DNA from: Thermodesulforhabdaceae bacterium
Lineage (GTDB): Bacteria; Desulfobacterota; Syntrophobacteria; Syntrophobacterales; Thermodesulforhabdaceae
DNA: 64,000 bases
Assembly: GCA_037482015.1 (NCBI GenBank)
Contig: JBBFKT010000005.1
Span: 1-64,000 of the forward strand
Direction of reading: 5' to 3'
Below, in pieces: positions 2,953 to 62,823 of this stretch. Numbering within the stretch: position 1 is the stretch's first letter; each line of letters opens with the position of its first letter. Made by a program: the position numbers and the translations under genes. Below the pieces are notes generated by a model that did no database searches, was not told the origin of the DNA, and worked only from the letters and a program-made list of their open reading frames with translations.

Positions 2953-3272
2953 GGTGCTTCCTCCTTTGTTATTTTCTGTCTAAATTCTGCCTCTAGAAGT
3001 GGCTCAAGTTGTTTGTAAATCATGCCGCCTAATCCCAGAGATCCTGAAAGACTGATTTCTCTAGCTACTGCCTCATCCATCATCGCCTCGTAGATTTCTC
3101 TCGCCCTATCCGGAGCTTCGGCTCGCATTATCGTCTCTCTCATGTTTTTCAAAATGTATGCCGTAAAGAGGCTTTCAAATTCCCTGCAGGCTTTTTTTAG
3201 TTCCTCTTTTTTTGCTTCGAACCTTTTTTCTGGAGGAATGGCTATCTTGACATCATTTTTCAAAGCTTCCAT
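2949..3272 (-). CDS. flgJ: Rod-binding protein FlgJ, N-terminal domain only
   Basis: The 107-residue product matches the rod-binding (rod-capping) domain of FlgJ: CREFESLFTAYILKNMRETI around residues 29-48, then a MMDEAVAREISLSGSLGLGG segment. It lacks the C-terminal muramidase domain of the enterobacterial two-domain protein, as is common outside the gamma-/betaproteobacteria, so peptidoglycan must be opened by a separate enzyme. The ATG at 3272 follows GGGGAGAG. It lies between the second motB-like gene and flgN. Confidence 0.88.
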   Translation of the reverse strand: MEALKNDVKIAIPPEKRFEAKKEELKKACREFESLFTAYILKNMRETIMRAEAPDRAREIYEAMMDEAVAREISLSGSLGLGGMIYKQLEPLLEAEFRQKITKEEAP

Positions 3273-4045: not shown

Positions 4046-4856
4046 GACCGGACTCTCCCCCAAAAAGCGGGAAGAAAAAGTGTTTGTATTGAAAGAATGG
4101 TTTTCGCTCGGCTTTCATAGAGTAGATACTTGCTGGAATTGATGGATTCTTTCCCAGAAGGATTTCCACACGACGGTTTTTGTATTTGAGAGAAGGGAAT
4201 TGATCGATATCCACGACGGGGTGAAAATAACTCATACCGTGAGCGCTCATGCGTTGAGGTGCAATACCTAGATTCAGGAAAAGTCTATATACGGCAAAAG
4301 CTCTTTCTGCGGAAATCTTCCATGATAGAGATTCCGAATTGGGTGTCGCCATTACTTCCGTTTTGTCAGTGTATGCTCGTATTTCTACATCTTGAGGATC
4401 GTTTTTTAAGTGCATTCCAAGGTTTGAAAGAAGCTTTTCGGCTAGCGGGGAAAGTTTTGATGATCCTTCGTCGAATAGAAAGGGAGCGTTTAAGCGGATC
4501 ATGAGGCGATCTTCCTCCCGAAGGATGTCGGCTTCTGGTCCGAGCATTCCAGTAGCTGCTAACTGTTTTAGAAGCTTTTCGTCCATAGAAGAGGGCTTTG
4601 TCATGGGAATCGATTGAATTGGAATGTTTTCTGGCTTTTCTTCTCCGCTTAGGCTTTTGCCTGCCGGCAAAAATCCAAATGCACCTATGAGAGAATTTAG
4701 CGCCTTTTTTTCTCTTTCTTCGTCTATAGAGGACATAGAGAAGATGAGCACGAAGAAAGTCAAGAGAAGGGTGCATAGATCTGCATAGGTAATAATCCAG
4801 GCAGGTTTCTTGGTCCCGTAGTCTGGATTATGTTGGGAAGACTTTCTAAGGCTCAT
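4032..4856 (-). CDS. MotB-like OmpA-family stator protein (first of a tandem pair)
   Basis: The 274-residue protein has one transmembrane helix with the stator motif PAWIITYADLCTLLLTFFVL, including the ion-carrying Asp, followed by a plug-like segment (FSMSSIDEEREKK) and a C-terminal OmpA domain (EIRAYTDKTE, ISAERAFAVYRLFL, NRRVEILLGK). It should anchor a MotA ring to peptidoglycan. It overlaps the next motB-like gene, so the two are translated together. The OmpA domain has Y-T-D-K rather than the common G-H-T-D, a small divergence from its neighbour. Confidence 0.85.
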   Translation of the reverse strand: MSLRKSSQHNPDYGTKKPAWIITYADLCTLLLTFFVLIFSMSSIDEEREKKALNSLIGAFGFLPAGKSLSGEEKPENIPIQSIPMTKPSSMDEKLLKQLAATGMLGPEADILREEDRLMIRLNAPFLFDEGSSKLSPLAEKLLSNLGMHLKNDPQDVEIRAYTDKTEVMATPNSESLSWKISAERAFAVYRLFLNLGIAPQRMSAHGMSYFHPVVDIDQFPSLKYKNRRVEILLGKNPSIPASIYSMKAERKPFFQYKHFFFPLFGGESGHGKK

Positions 4857-4922: not shown

Positions 4923-6041
4923 TTAGATGATCTCCAGTTCTGCCTGCAGTGCTCCTGCTGCCTTCATAGCCTGTAAAATGTTTATTAAATCTCTGGGAGT
5001 GGCTCCTAAAGCGTTCAATCCTTCCACCACCTGACTGATGGTTATACCTCCGCCTACAATAGCAAGATGAGCCTTCTGTTCCTTCACTTCGACCTGTGTT
5101 TGAGGCACAACGGCAGTTTGTCCCGGGCTGAATGGGAGAGGTTGGGATACGTAAGGTTGTTCCGTAATAGTTACGGTGAGATTGCCGTGAGCTACGGCCA
5201 CCGGCGCTATACGCACATTTTCTCCCATGACTATCGTTCCGGTTCGTTCGTTTATGACAATCTTGGCAACTGCGTCGGGAACAACTTCAAGCCCTTCAAC
5301 CATGGCTACAAAATCAACCAGCTTTTTCTGATATCCTTCTGGAATTTGAACTTTGACTGTGCTTGCATCTTCAGGTGCAGCGATGGTGCTTCCAAAGTTT
5401 TTGTTAATCGTGTCTGCGATTTTCTTGGATGATGTAAAATCGGGTTGATTGAGGGTCAACGTTAGATGATCTAGGCCTTCGTAAGACACTGGAATGTCTT
5501 TTTCTATCAGGGCTCCGTTTGAGATGTAACCCACTGTAGGATGATTTTGTTGCACGCCACCTCCTGCCTGCCCTCCAAAGGCGAATCCTCCAACCGAGAT
5601 GGGTCCCTGAGCGACTCCATACACCTGTCCGTCAGGCCCCTGTAAAGGTGTCATCAGGAGAGTGCCCCCTACAAGGCTTTTAGCGTCCCCGATTGATGAT
5701 ACCTGAACGTCAACCTTCATTCCCTGCTTTGCAAATGGAGGAAGCTTAGCAGTTACCATTACAGCGGCAACATTTTTAATCTTGATTTGAGCAGGATCTA
5801 CGTGGATGCCCATGTTGTCCAACATATTTGCGAGTGTGCTCACTGTGAACTGGGTCTTTTCTTTATCACCGGTTCCGTTTAACCCCACCACAAGTCCATA
5901 GCCAACAAGCATGTTGGGTCTATCTCCTACGAAATGCGCAATGTCTTTAATGCGAGCAGCTGCGGCTATGCCAGAACCGCTGACGTAAAACGCCAGCAAG
6001 GTGATAAAGAGAATGAGCCATAAACCCTTTGTTTTCCTCAT
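4923..6041 (-). CDS. flgI: Flagellar P-ring protein FlgI
   Basis: FlgI forms the periplasmic P ring around the flagellar rod. The 372-residue protein begins with a Sec signal peptide ending near GIAAAA, followed by the highly conserved family start RIKDIAHFVGDRPNMLVGYG and LVVGLNGTGDK. The C-terminus carries LNALGATPRDLINILQAMKA, also diagnostic. Length and motifs are fully typical. It lies 31 bp downstream of flgH in the order flgF-flgG-flgA-flgH-flgI. Confidence 0.97.
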   Translation of the reverse strand: MRKTKGLWLILFITLLAFYVSGSGIAAAARIKDIAHFVGDRPNMLVGYGLVVGLNGTGDKEKTQFTVSTLANMLDNMGIHVDPAQIKIKNVAAVMVTAKLPPFAKQGMKVDVQVSSIGDAKSLVGGTLLMTPLQGPDGQVYGVAQGPISVGGFAFGGQAGGGVQQNHPTVGYISNGALIEKDIPVSYEGLDHLTLTLNQPDFTSSKKIADTINKNFGSTIAAPEDASTVKVQIPEGYQKKLVDFVAMVEGLEVVPDAVAKIVINERTGTIVMGENVRIAPVAVAHGNLTVTITEQPYVSQPLPFSPGQTAVVPQTQVEVKEQKAHLAIVGGGITISQVVEGLNALGATPRDLINILQAMKAAGALQAELEII

Positions 6042-6072: not shown

Positions 6073-6822
6073 CTAAAAGGGAAATAGAAGATCCATAATT
6101 TGTCCAAGCCAGCCTGGGCGTTGCTGTCTGGACACAGGTCCCTTGCCTACAATGAAAATCTTAGCATCAGCTATATTTTGTGACATCACAGTGTTGTTTC
6201 GGGTTATATCTACAGGTCGCACAACGCCTTCCAATATTATCTGGTGCACTTCGTCGTTTACCTTTACCCATCGTGAACCTCGAATCACAAGATTACCGTT
6301 TGGTAGAACATCTACAACCGTTGCCGTCATGTAAGCTTTGACCGTGTTGGTTCTGGTGGTTTTCCCAGATCCTTTAAGTCCCCGACCAAATTCAGCGCCA
6401 TAATCAAGTGCAGTTGAACCACCAAGAAGATTTTTGCCAGCCACAGCTGGATTTGATGCACTGAGTTTCCCGCCCCAACTATGAGTTCGATTAGTCTCTG
6501 TTGTTGCTTCTTCTGACGCATCAGCCGATTCGCTGACGGTTATGGTGATGGTGTCGCCAATGTTTCTAGCTTTGATGTCCCGATAGAGTGAACCAACCTG
6601 ATTGTTCCATATAGAGCCTGATGGCTGAGGAAGTGGCTGAGAAGATGGATGTGATGATGGTATCTCATAAGCTGGAGACTGTGATGGAGCAGGGGGAGGA
6701 ATAAATTGAGAATGAGTGGCTGAATCAGTTCTATCACCCATTGTCGCACAGCCGTAAGCCGTCGCGACAATCAATAAAGTCCCGATAATTTTAATTGCCC
6801 TGCATTCCCAAAATTTAGTCAT
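6073..6822 (-). CDS. flgH: Flagellar L-ring lipoprotein FlgH
   Basis: FlgH forms the L ring in the outer membrane. A lipoprotein signal with a lipobox ending at Cys25 (TAYGC) is followed by a Pro/Ser-rich spacer (about residues 35-75) and then the conserved FlgH domain: SLYRDIKARNIGDTITITVS, NGNLVIRGSRWVKVNDE and VRPVDITRNNTV. Presence of FlgH shows a Gram-negative outer membrane. The gap to flgA is 4 bp, consistent with one transcript. Confidence 0.96.
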   Translation of the reverse strand: MTKFWECRAIKIIGTLLIVATAYGCATMGDRTDSATHSQFIPPPAPSQSPAYEIPSSHPSSQPLPQPSGSIWNNQVGSLYRDIKARNIGDTITITVSESADASEEATTETNRTHSWGGKLSASNPAVAGKNLLGGSTALDYGAEFGRGLKGSGKTTRTNTVKAYMTATVVDVLPNGNLVIRGSRWVKVNDEVHQIILEGVVRPVDITRNNTVMSQNIADAKIFIVGKGPVSRQQRPGWLGQIMDLLFPF

Positions 6823-45381: not shown

Positions 45382-45563
45382 ACGCATACGTCGCCCCTAC
45401 ATTCAGTGCGCCCAGCATGTGCGTGCTCCTGGAGGTGAAAGTCCTCCCGTGAGTTGATCACAGCGAGCGAAGGGAAGCACAACTGCACGAGGGTGACCGA
45501 GTGTGGGGAGGAAGCGTCGAACGAAACTGCGAGCCGATGGACAAGAACCGGACCCCTCCCCAG

Positions 45564-45585
45564 CCCTCCCCGTTGACGGGGAGGG
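45564..45585. repeat. GC-rich palindrome nested in the intron-like segment
   Basis: CCCTCCCCG at 45564-45572 and CGGGGAGGG at 45577-45585 form a perfect 9-bp stem with a TTGA loop, within a longer GC-rich block (45550-45608). Such GGGGAGGG-type palindromes occur as dispersed repeats in many genomes; here it interrupts what should be domain I. Confidence 0.55.
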
Positions 45586-45667
45586 GGTGCGGAGCGGGGC
45601 GAGCGGGCTAGAGTCCGAGAAGCTCTCGTGATCAAGGTGAAGTGGCGTAAATTCGGCGGTTGTGCAT

Positions 45668-45701
45668 CATGTAGGGGCGACACATGCGTCGCCCCTACAT
45701 G
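45668..45701. repeat. Perfect 14-bp GTAGGGGCGAC palindrome nested in the intron-like segment
   Basis: CATGTAGGGGCGAC at 45668-45681 and GTCGCCCCTACATG at 45688-45701 flank ACATGC. It is the clearest copy of the GTAGGGGCG palindrome family in this window. Confidence 0.7.
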
Positions 45702-59842: not shown

Positions 59843-59857
59843 AGGGAATTGACCTCG

Positions 59858-60355
59858 ATGAAGACTCAAACCCGTAAAAACCTGGAAGTTGCTTTTGTTG
59901 GGGAAAGCAAAGCCTACTTTAGATTGCTTAGCTTTGCGAAAAAGGCTGAAGAAGAAGGCTATCCCCAAATAGCTCTGCTCTTTCGAGCTGTGGCAGAGGC
60001 GGAAGCTGTGCATGCAAGAAACTATTTTTCTCTTTTGGAAGATGTAGGATCAACTGAAGAAAATCTCAAAAGATCATTTGAGAATGAGACTTTTGCAAGC
60101 GAACTTGCCTATCCCGACATGATAAAACAGGCGTGGCAGGATGAAGATAAAGCGGCTATATGGTGGTTTACTGCGGCAAGGAATGCTGATGAACGGCATG
60201 CCAAGCTTTACAAATACGCTCTCGATCATGTGATCTCGGAGAGAATGACGGTTTACCATGTATGCACCCACTGCGGCTGGATAGAGGACGGGTTTTTACC
60301 GGAAACGTGTCCAAACTGCGGAAAGAGCAGAGAATGGTTTAAGAAGATCGAATAG
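59858..60355 (+). CDS. rbr: Rubrerythrin
   Basis: Rubrerythrin reduces hydrogen peroxide in anaerobes. The N-terminal four-helix domain contains the di-iron glutamates (LEVAFVGESKAYFRLLSFAK, AVAEAEAVHARNYFSLLEDV, ARNADERHAKLYKYALDHVI), and the C-terminal rubredoxin domain has HVCTHCGWIEDG and PETCPNCGKSREWFKKIE. A TTG at 59849 is possible, but the ATG at 59858, about 10 bp after AAGGGA, is preferred (165 residues). A degraded copy of its 3' end lies at about 61301-61460. Confidence 0.95.
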   Translation: MKTQTRKNLEVAFVGESKAYFRLLSFAKKAEEEGYPQIALLFRAVAEAEAVHARNYFSLLEDVGSTEENLKRSFENETFASELAYPDMIKQAWQDEDKAAIWWFTAARNADERHAKLYKYALDHVISERMTVYHVCTHCGWIEDGFLPETCPNCGKSREWFKKIE

Positions 60356-60465
60356 TAGTAGTTATTGAATAGTGGCTAAACTTTTGGCCATTAGCAATAT
60401 GGCAGTTGGGCTTCCATTCGCTCCCAAGGGGTAAGAAGAGGCTTTCCTCCTGGCGAGTAAGGGTA

Positions 60466-60564
60466 TTATGGAGAGGGGACTGTGGGGGGATTGTCCATCA
60501 GTTCCTTAAACCAATTTATAGCTGCCTGTTCGACCATGTAGTCTTCGGTAAGTTGTGCGTTCAT
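60466..60564 (-). pseudogene. 5' fragment of a type I restriction endonuclease (hsdR)
   Basis: A 32-codon frame begins MNAQLTEDYMVEQAAINWFK and EL, the N-terminal signature of HsdR subunits (T-E-D-x-x-V-E-Q-x-A-I ... F-x-E-L). It then runs into unrelated sequence and stops. HsdR proteins are about 1000 residues, so only the first about 22 codons remain. It lies 16 bp downstream of the DUF2283 gene on the same strand. Confidence 0.6.
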
Positions 60565-60579
60565 ATCTTTTCACTATTA

Positions 60580-60801
60580 TCATACTTCTTTTATCGCTTC
60601 TTTTAGTTGAGAAGCCAAAGACTTTGCAACCATTTTTGTGATGTTATGAATTTCCACTCCTAAAATTTCCCTTTCTTTTCCATACTCAACACGCAGGTCT
60701 TCCGCTATTTCCTCTGAATCAAGCGCAGGTCCTTCTTTCAAGGAAACATAAAGTATATCCATCTCATCATCGTACCAGACTTTTATTTTATTCTTATCCA
60801 T
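60580..60801 (-). CDS. DUF2283 protein, putative antitoxin
   Basis: The 73-residue product has the DUF2283 pattern: VWYDDEMDILYVSLKEGPAL, EEIAEDLRVEYGKEREILGV and EIHNITKMV. DUF2283 proteins are often encoded beside DUF4258 proteins and are treated as antitoxin-like partners. The ATG follows AAGGAG inside the upstream gene, which it overlaps by 19 bp, so the two are translated together. Confidence 0.8.
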   Translation of the reverse strand: MDKNKIKVWYDDEMDILYVSLKEGPALDSEEIAEDLRVEYGKEREILGVEIHNITKMVAKSLASQLKEAIKEV

Positions 60802-61064
60802 TTCAATCTCTCCTTCCTTTTAATTTCTTTATCTATATTTTTACATGGATAAGCAGTTATTATTTTTATTTCATCATCTTCTTTTTTGTGCACCACAATT
60901 AAATTTGTTTCCATTTCTCCAATTTTAATTTTTCCAATTGAAACAAAGCTTTTTGAGATGATGTCATAAAATATGAGTTCAGCATTTTTAAGTACTTTCT
61001 CTATATTCTCCAAATCAATTCTTCTTTCTTCAATTTTTAATTTCGCGTGTTTTGAAAGTTTCAA
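60783..61064 (-). CDS. DUF4258 protein, putative RelE/BrnT-like toxin
   Basis: The 93-residue basic protein starts LSKHAKLKIEERRIDLENIE, has a central KSFVSIGKIKIGEMETNLIV strand pair and ends with DDEIKIITAYPC, the DUF4258 pattern related to RelE/BrnT-like toxins. It starts at TTG, with GGTGGAG upstream, and that TTG overlaps the stop codon of the hsdS remnant (TTGA). Toxic activity is inferred from family context only. Confidence 0.75.
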   Translation of the reverse strand: MKLSKHAKLKIEERRIDLENIEKVLKNAELIFYDIISKSFVSIGKIKIGEMETNLIVVHKKEDDEIKIITAYPCKNIDKEIKRKERLKWIRIK

Positions 61065-61174
61065 TTTCGTATCTCCACCACCCTTAACTTATCAAAAACA
61101 AGTTTTGGAAGCAAAGCATCGCGTAATTTTTGCATAAGCATAATCTGTTGAGGATGATTTTTTGAAATAACAGC
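61061..61174 (-). pseudogene. 3' fragment of a type I restriction specificity subunit (hsdS)
   Basis: A 37-codon frame without its own start reads SKNHPQQIMLMQKLRDALLP then KLVFDKLRVVEIRN and stop. The L-x-x-L-R-D-x-L-L-P-K-L ending is characteristic of the C-terminal coiled coil of HsdS proteins. An in-frame stop precedes it at 61175, so the rest of hsdS is missing. Its stop overlaps the start of the DUF4258 gene. Confidence 0.6.
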
Positions 61175-61300
61175 TCAACGAGGGAGTAGAAGCAATGTAG
61201 GATGGGGAAGAGGGAGCAGAAATTTTTTTAAAACTTTATCTGTATTTGACATACTTCACTTTATCAAAAAATCCTACCGAAGTGGAGTTTTCGCCACAGG

Positions 61301-61460
61301 CTTTGCAAATACGCCCTCGATCACGTGATCTCCGAAAGAATGACGATTTACTATGTATGAAGCCACTGCGTCTGAATGTCTGAATAGAGGACGCGGAGAT
61401 TTACCGGAAACGTGTCCAAACTGCGGAAAGAACAGAGAATGGTTTAAGAAGATCGCGTAA
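61301..61460 (+). pseudogene. Degraded duplicate of the rubrerythrin 3' end
   Basis: The segment aligns with the end of the rubrerythrin gene (about 60206-60355). The last about 55 bp, from TTACCGGAAACGTGTCC on, differ at a single base up to the final codon, while the middle has a stop codon and small indels. It includes the rubredoxin-domain codons (PETCPNCGK region). Its end overlaps the last codons and stop of the opposite-strand M20 peptidase. Confidence 0.85.
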
Positions 61461-62823
61461 TAGCCAGCTCTTCAAGAAAGATAGCCGCCGCTCTTGTGCC
61501 GTTTCTGAAGTTTTCTACAGCAAAGTGTTCATTAGGGCCATGAGGACCATCGTCAGGATTGCCCCATCCAAGTAAAAGTATTGAGTTTATACCGAGAAGT
61601 TCTTTGAACGTAGAAACCACGGGTATTGATCCTCCTTCGCGAATGAACACGGGCTCCCGACCAAATCCTTTTTGAAGAGCCCTTTTGGCTGCATCAACCT
61701 CGGGTAGGTCTCTCGGGACTATTACTGGATCTGTACCGTGGAGGGATTTTACAGAGACTTTCACTCCTGATGGCGCTTTTTTTACGAGAAAATCGGTAAC
61801 AAGAGAGTCTATTCGCTTTGAGGACTGATTAGGCACAAGCCTCATGCTTAACTTTGCTCCCGCTCTGGATGGAATAACCGTTTTCGCTCCTTCTCCCTGA
61901 TATCCACCCCATATGCCGTTTATATCAAGAGTGGGGCGAGCGGCTTTACGTTCCAGGGCAGAATAGCCTTCTTCGCCAAAAAGTTCATCCACCCCAAGGT
62001 ATGACTTGAGTTCGTCTTCATTTATGGCAAGTCTAGCCATTTCTTCACGTTCCCAGGGTTCTAGGGGCAACACGTCATCATAAAACCCTGGTATGGTTAT
62101 GCGTCCTTTATCGTCTTTAAGTTGAGCTAGGAGTTGAACCAGAGTGTTTATCGGGTTTCTAACGATTCCACCGTAGCTTCCCGAATGGAGGTCAATCCGT
62201 GGTCCTACTACTTCGACTTCCAGGTAAGAAAGACCCCTGAGCCCGTAGGTTATAGCTGGAATGTCGTGGGAGTACTTTGACCCATCAGATATAGCTATAG
62301 TATCTGCAGAAAGAAGTTCTTTATGTTCCAGAATAAAACCGTGAAGGTTGGGACTTCCTATTTCTTCCTCACCTTCTATGAGGATTTTTACATTAATAGG
62401 GATGTTACCTGTTACTTCTTTTACTGTCTCCAGAGCCTTAATCCAGGTAAATAACTGTCCCTTATCGTCCGTTGCTCCTCGAGCGTAGATTAAACCGTTA
62501 CGGATTGATGGTTCAAATGGTGGGGTTTCCCACTCCTCCAGTGGATCCTCAGGTTGGACATCATAATGTCCGTAGATCATAAGAGTCGGACGGTCAGAAT
62601 ATTGGCACAGCGAAGCAAAAAGGATGGGATGCCCCTTAGTTTGATAAATGTTGGTTTTCATACCCAGAGAGTCAAGCTTATTTTTTAGCCATTGAGCGGC
62701 GTTAAGAATATCGGCTCGGTGTTCAGATTTAGCACTTATGCTGGGAATTCTAAGGAATTCGCAAAGTTCTCCTATGAATTTATCAAGGTTTAAATCGATC
62801 GCTTTCAAAATTTTATCTTCCAT
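61444..62823 (-). CDS. M20-family dipeptidase/metallopeptidase
   Basis: A cytoplasmic zinc exopeptidase of the ArgE/DapE/carnosinase group. It has MIYGHYDVQPEDPLEEWETP (metal His and Asp), YARGATDDKGQLFTWIKALE (bridging Asp), ILIEGEEEIGSPNLHGF (catalytic and metal Glu), SDGSKYSHDIPAITYGLRGL and a dimerisation domain beginning VVGPRIDLHSGSYGG. The final His is in DDGPHGPNEHFAVENF. At 459 residues it fits the PepV-like/cysteinylglycine dipeptidase group. Its last six codons lie inside the duplicated rubrerythrin fragment, so the C-terminus may have been altered. Confidence 0.93.
   Translation of the reverse strand: MEDKILKAIDLNLDKFIGELCEFLRIPSISAKSEHRADILNAAQWLKNKLDSLGMKTNIYQTKGHPILFASLCQYSDRPTLMIYGHYDVQPEDPLEEWETPPFEPSIRNGLIYARGATDDKGQLFTWIKALETVKEVTGNIPINVKILIEGEEEIGSPNLHGFILEHKELLSADTIAISDGSKYSHDIPAITYGLRGLSYLEVEVVGPRIDLHSGSYGGIVRNPINTLVQLLAQLKDDKGRITIPGFYDDVLPLEPWEREEMARLAINEDELKSYLGVDELFGEEGYSALERKAARPTLDINGIWGGYQGEGAKTVIPSRAGAKLSMRLVPNQSSKRIDSLVTDFLVKKAPSGVKVSVKSLHGTDPVIVPRDLPEVDAAKRALQKGFGREPVFIREGGSIPVVSTFKELLGINSILLLGWGNPDDGPHGPNEHFAVENFRNGTRAAAIFLEELAITRSS

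Follow-up and report, generated by a model that had tools for sequence, protein, structure and literature searches.

A survey published in 2025 lists DUF4258 (PF14076) among the BECR toxins, with activity unknown and in modules of antitoxin-first order (PMC11980606). A small toxin-like protein of predicted BECR fold with a small, overlapping partner gene recalls BrnT–BrnA and other type II modules of the RelE/ParE superfamily, and this is also the pattern of the locus described here. Unlike in those modules, the partner, DUF2283, has no antitoxin match, and in contrast to the DUF4258 modules of the survey, the toxin-like gene comes first. Nothing on DUF2283, alone or with DUF4258, was found among the papers searched.

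A nuclease is also known inside a type I restriction operon, EcoprrI, whose anticodon nuclease PrrC is kept in check by the active restriction complex (PMC3874165). Our locus likewise links a nuclease-type gene to such an operon, but it has a toxin–antitoxin-like pair and encodes no restriction complex. Its restriction sequences match the HsdS C-terminus and the HsdR N-terminus of the type I operon found on Methanocaldococcus jannaschii pDSM2661_1 and in G003, a genome from the same bacterial family as ours; only about 35 and 22 codons are kept, with no hsdM and no function.

The window, the whole stretch of 64,000 nucleotides analysed here, is the beginning of contig C5 of a Thermodesulforhabdaceae genome (2.7 Mb, 32 contigs). 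We conclude that it probably carries horizontally acquired DNA behind a rubrerythrin gene, and that the core of this DNA probably stems from a type I restriction operon with DUF4258 and DUF2283, a putative toxin–antitoxin pair, between hsdS and hsdR.

The insertion site

The features of the locus are as follows.

59849–60355, plus strand: rubrerythrin gene, intact, insertion target (Pfam Rubrerythrin, 1.3e-16; G001 orthologue 81% identical)
60202–60358, plus strand: rubrerythrin 3′ end, functional copy 1 of a 157-bp direct repeat
60359–60498, no strand: spacer of host-like base composition, with scraps of two dispersed repeats (60385–60423, 60427–60464)
60499–60564, minus strand: hsdR 5′ stub, first 22 codons (similarity to HsdR of G003 and M. 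jannaschii)
60580–60801, minus strand: DUF2283 gene, 73 aa, putative antitoxin, AGGAGAG ribosome site upstream (Pfam, 1.2e-12; AlphaFold pLDDT 89.9)
60783–61064, minus strand: DUF4258 gene, 93 aa, TTG start preceded by GGTGGAG, putative BECR-fold RNase toxin (Pfam, 2.3e-9; AlphaFold pLDDT 93.7)
61061–61174, minus strand: hsdS 3′ stub, last ~35 codons, stop overlapping the DUF4258 start (PADLOC, tblastn, alignment to relatives)
61175–61296, no strand: spacer between hsdS stub and rubrerythrin copy 2 (no match found)
61297–61463, plus strand: rubrerythrin 3′ end, copy 2, decayed (8-bp and 2-bp insertions, stops), abutting the M20 gene as ancestrally
61444–62823, minus strand: M20 peptidase gene, right border of the insertion (Pfam Peptidase_M20, 3.7e-32; same neighbour in G001)

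The insert measures 1.1 kb and lies between the convergent rubrerythrin and M20-peptidase genes, the ends of which are only 18 bp apart in the same-genus genome G001, an empty site. Its G+C content of 25–37%, against ~46%, marks a foreign composition; the core (60499–61174, ~0.7 kb) is in part at 25%. On the minus strand, the core reads HsdS C-terminal stub, DUF4258, DUF2283 and HsdR N-terminal stub, an order and positions that the preliminary description had given correctly, together with the rubrerythrin direct repeats that bracket the insert (60202–60358 and 61297–61463).

The two repeat copies differ at 16 of 145 ungapped bases, and copy 2 has two insertions. Synonymous changes account for several of the differences, and one codon of copy 2 agrees with the relatives, so that some of this divergence may predate the event. 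The rubrerythrin 3′ end is restored on one side, a displaced copy stands on the other and the G001 site is empty, as around the att sites of an integrase-borne element at a gene 3′ end, but the 1.1-kb insert holds no recombinase, nor any further gene. No intrinsic terminator, sigma-70-like promoter or RNA family was found in the insert, and in the light of the missing promoter, expression of the pair is unproven.

Two dispersed genome repeats meet at the insert's left edge (60385–60464); contigs C1, C4, C7, C8, C12 and C20 have further copies of them. Elsewhere in the window, a group II intron D1–D4 match (45465–45683; RF02001, 35.7 bits) lies beside another copy of the scrap present at 60402–60423.

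Restriction stubs

The HsdS stub gave 11 PADLOC matches, all Specificity_I and all to the C-terminal end of the models (best 1.3e-4). In a tblastn search of plasmids, M. jannaschii HsdS was the best match (3e-4), and 18 of 20 among the records listed are annotated as restriction subunit S. The HsdR stub, the ATG of which lies at 60564, 15 bp past the DUF2283 stop, is too short for profiles and had no match in Pfam, NCBIfam, PADLOC or the PDB. Direct comparison was more informative. The stub, AQLTEDYMVEQAAINWFKEL, is identical at 14/20 positions to the start of the intact G003 HsdR, AELTEDYLVEQSAIGWLKNL, with a score of 78 against at most 40 for shuffles (0/5000), and at 11/20 positions to the M. 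jannaschii HsdR N-terminus (0/20000 shuffles as good). A chance likeness was therefore rejected, real HsdR N-termini scoring far above shuffles. The comparison sequences were selected by similarity to M. jannaschii HsdR, itself chosen via the HsdS stub, and the HsdR match is thus a fairly independent confirmation. G003, G137 and G067 share one HsdR group, and in G003 and G137 the HsdS ends match as well.

Two other leads were discarded. Three plasmid tblastn matches to the HsdR stub (E 1–2) were set aside; one of them, H3 (Azospirillum), shows no HsdR-like sequence when read in frame. The type I system of the genome itself is not the source of the stubs, as its HsdR and HsdS ends differ.

These sequence comparisons support both stubs as genuine HsdS and HsdR ends from a single type I family; the restriction-operon origin of the core is well supported. 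The search of both fragments against HsdS and HsdR, which the preliminary description had proposed, thus bore out its assignments. Its hsdR fragment of 60466–60564 does begin at the HsdR start at 60564, but homology ends after 22 codons, at 60499; the rest of the open frame, down to 60466, shows none. The site has the end stubs of hsdS and hsdR only and no hsdM, not a complete type I restriction–modification system. Its earlier portrayal as a decayed locus presumes that the whole operon formerly stood here, rather than a captured piece of ~0.7 kb, which would be a guess.

The DUF4258–DUF2283 pair

The genome has one DUF4258 and one DUF2283 gene only, both in the insert, and both pass their Pfam cut-offs (37.8 against 25 bits for PF14076; 48.2 against 23 bits for PF10049). 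As a BrnT toxin (PF04365), the DUF4258 protein fails, with 20.9 against 34.5 bits, and the similarity is one of fold alone. The stop of the HsdS stub (61061–61063) overlaps the TTG start of DUF4258 (61062–61064) as TTGA, as noticed earlier from the sequence, the DUF4258 and DUF2283 genes overlap by 19 bp, and good ribosome sites precede both.

The closest structural matches of the DUF4258 model were 7vd7 (Z 8.1) and BrnT (Z 8.0), followed by RelE, YoeB and colicin E5 folds at Z 5–6.5; HigB was also matched. A Z near 8 is moderate, and nearly all the rows listed have the BECR fold. In the DUF4258 protein, His6 and Arg14 are invariant. The DUF2283 model consists of a five-strand sheet plus a helix, and neither sequence nor fold comparison found a clear counterpart among solved structures, antitoxins included. 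No convincing relative of the pair was found by sequence in the PDB.

The nearest relatives found are archaeal, with up to 49% identity (DUF2283) and the same gene order and overlap. No close relatives turned up in plasmids or viral contigs, and a first scan of genome contigs with DUF4258 likewise gave none. The locus thus shows what is expected of a type II module, namely two small overlapping genes, kept so in relatives, and a toxin-like gene of a known toxin fold. Because of the predicted BrnT/RelE (BECR) fold, the 19-bp overlap and the order kept in archaeal relatives, a type II toxin–antitoxin module is the best reading, and on these predictions a toxin–antitoxin function appears likely. 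From the pairing alone, we infer DUF2283 to be the antitoxin.

The hsdS–hsdR gap in related operons

The gap between hsdS and hsdR of this HsdR family often holds variable cargo. It contains a gene for a 217-aa protein in G003, a gene for a 548-aa protein in G067 and an MNT–HEPN toxin–antitoxin pair in G137 (Pfam 3e-16 and 1e-31), and several further loci, read with 1.5-kb flanks, have genes of ~0.6–0.75 kb there. A type I system on a Picosynechococcus plasmid carries vapBC between hsdS and hsdR. Like our pair, the MNT–HEPN and VapBC pairs are of toxin–antitoxin type and lie in the gap, on the same strand in G137 and on the opposite strand in Picosynechococcus; unlike ours, they stand in intact operons, and their toxin families are unrelated to that of the window. 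The earlier proposal of an operon with the pair between hsdS and hsdR is therefore sustained by the genuine stubs and the toxin–antitoxin pairs in the gap of relatives, but an intact hsdS–DUF4258–DUF2283–hsdR operon was found in none of the loci fetched and examined, the coverage of which was limited.

Three further arrangements were seen. A REP-type transposase-like gene, identified by eye, separates hsdS from hsdR in the intact type I locus elsewhere in this genome (L073 2108–2812, G000:C1). The G137 type I operon (L212 3324–5969; also L182) has a Thoeris ThsB-like TIR gene ahead of hsdS, in addition to the MNT–HEPN pair. In G112 (L042 2572–6527), a type IIG-like restriction gene is followed, ~80 bp past its stop, by the start of a DUF4258-like/DUF2283 pair.

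Direct repeats around related pairs

We compared the upstream with the downstream flanks of related pairs by blastn (E 1e-6). A direct repeat was present at 12/51 related pairs against 4/142 control positions in the same loci (p 3e-5) and, in the sets from the phylum, at 9/42 against 2/43 control loci that had a rubrerythrin or HsdR gene at their centre (p 0.026). Pooled, the counts are 21/93 and 6/185 (p 9e-7), p-values that overstate the case, since repeats had already been noticed in locus L121 and in the window when the test was designed, the loci are partly interrelated and flank lengths were unequal between the two runs. Loci L079–L141 came from a scan with an alignment (A6) in which one row is a natural protein and the other four are invented variants of a motif, attached to the ends of real homologues; the scan is biased towards pairs with YD[DEP]ExDILY, and its yield does not amount to a census. 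These loci are real relatives, since they were confirmed by tblastn with the window protein alone.

The repeats were classified by eye, and at several loci they are the 3′ end of a neighbouring gene. In the closest relative, L079 (Baldrarchaeota), the pair lies between two 53-bp stretches of the 3′ end of the relE-like gene upstream (3097–3149 and 4195–4247, 96% identical). The L130 pair stands between 3′ ends of a UDP-glucose dehydrogenase-like gene (120 bp; 5445–5564 and 6288–6398), and the DUF2283 pair of L053 between those of a GCPSCVG gene (108 bp; 1094–1201 and 1994–2100). The repeat is a restriction-gene 3′ end in L110, L112 and L121, most of a small gene in L105/L108 and a gene start in L101 and L045, and is non-coding or ambiguous in the other loci. 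In Nitrospirae, toxin–antitoxin-like modules are separated by an Eco57I-type restriction-gene tail, TSALEKQIDEMVYALYGLTPEEIAIVEGKK, of which 12 kb can hold up to seven copies (L121 4840–12195). Repeats of this tail were also seen in L110, L123, L126, L127, L106, L118, L125, L132, L137, L138 and L152. No published description of such a gene-tail bracket was found.

Discussion

We propose that a type I operon once carried the pair in its hsdS–hsdR gap and that a piece of this operon would have been acquired horizontally; within the captured piece, only the pair is still complete. The insertion and the doubling of the 157-bp rubrerythrin tail may have been one event, which would have left both convergent neighbours intact, the displaced tail decaying afterwards. 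DUF4258 would most likely be BrnT/RelE-like and cut RNA, while DUF2283 would most likely bind and neutralise it, the 19-bp overlap keeping their translation in step. Selection may then have retained the pair, as loss of the antitoxin would free the toxin.

The direct repeats allow another account of the same DNA, in which the pair would move by itself, as a small cassette that lodges behind genes and doubles their 3′ ends, and would have brought the restriction stubs along as flank from a previous site. That repeats are commoner around related pairs than around controls, and are gene 3′ ends at L079, L130, L053, L110, L112, L121 and the window, speaks for it. On the other hand, the window insert has no recombinase, about three quarters of related pairs lack a repeat, and the loci are neither fully independent nor free of a test designed after the pattern was seen; the repeats may also stem from ordinary tandem duplication or from recombination of circles. 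For the window, we regard this account as possible but rather doubtful. More generally, the duplication of gene ends around related pairs, in unrelated genes and phyla, hints at a shared, unexplained insertion route. We suggest, tentatively, that DUF4258–DUF2283 and other small toxin–antitoxin pairs might be cassettes of 0.6–1 kb without a recombinase of their own that duplicate the last 50–230 bp of a gene. Reuse of the tail would then produce arrays as in Nitrospirae, and the rubrerythrin bracket would be one instance.

Alternatively, a random operon piece of ~0.7 kb could have been captured recently, its small frames being open by chance and the pair idle here. The decayed rubrerythrin copy serves as a rough clock: it is 11% different from copy 1 and has two insertions and stops in 167 bp, whereas the 485 bp of the pair have none. 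In neutral simulations, which depend on this poorly known clock, both frames stayed open in 0.7–22% of runs at 3–5.5% change with 1–7 indels per 485 bp; without indels they did so in 39% and 20%, and at 11% change in 4.6%. Simulation thus leaves about 1–20% for open frames at low divergence, the insert has no promoter-like site, and the divergence of the rubrerythrin copies, being partly synonymous, may predate the event, all of which would suit an idle relic. Against it stand the contrast between copy 2 and the pair and the good ribosome sites ahead of both genes, and we consider it unlikely. Selection on the pair, as suggested in the preliminary description, agrees with the two open frames, but given what neutral change allows, its support is weak and the evidence suggestive only.

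A complete type I operon may instead have inserted, with the pair as a PrrC-like guard, and deletions may have taken hsdM and most of hsdS and hsdR; the pair does occupy the correct slot between the stubs and PrrC is a known nuclease embedded in a type I operon (PMC3874165), but the site holds no further remains of an operon, the deletions would have had to stop within ~110 bp of the pair on both sides, and no restriction enzyme is left to guard. We hold this account to be improbable, and the guard role, raised in the preliminary description, would be a guess.

Read as a captured piece of a type I operon, the locus would be a natural case of a toxin–antitoxin-like pair outlasting its carrier restriction operon, and in the related operons the space between hsdS and hsdR emerges as a place where such pairs can be carried. 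More surprising as a lead is the recurrent gene-tail bracket. If upheld in a larger test, this repeat signature would explain the spread of modules too small for a recombinase.
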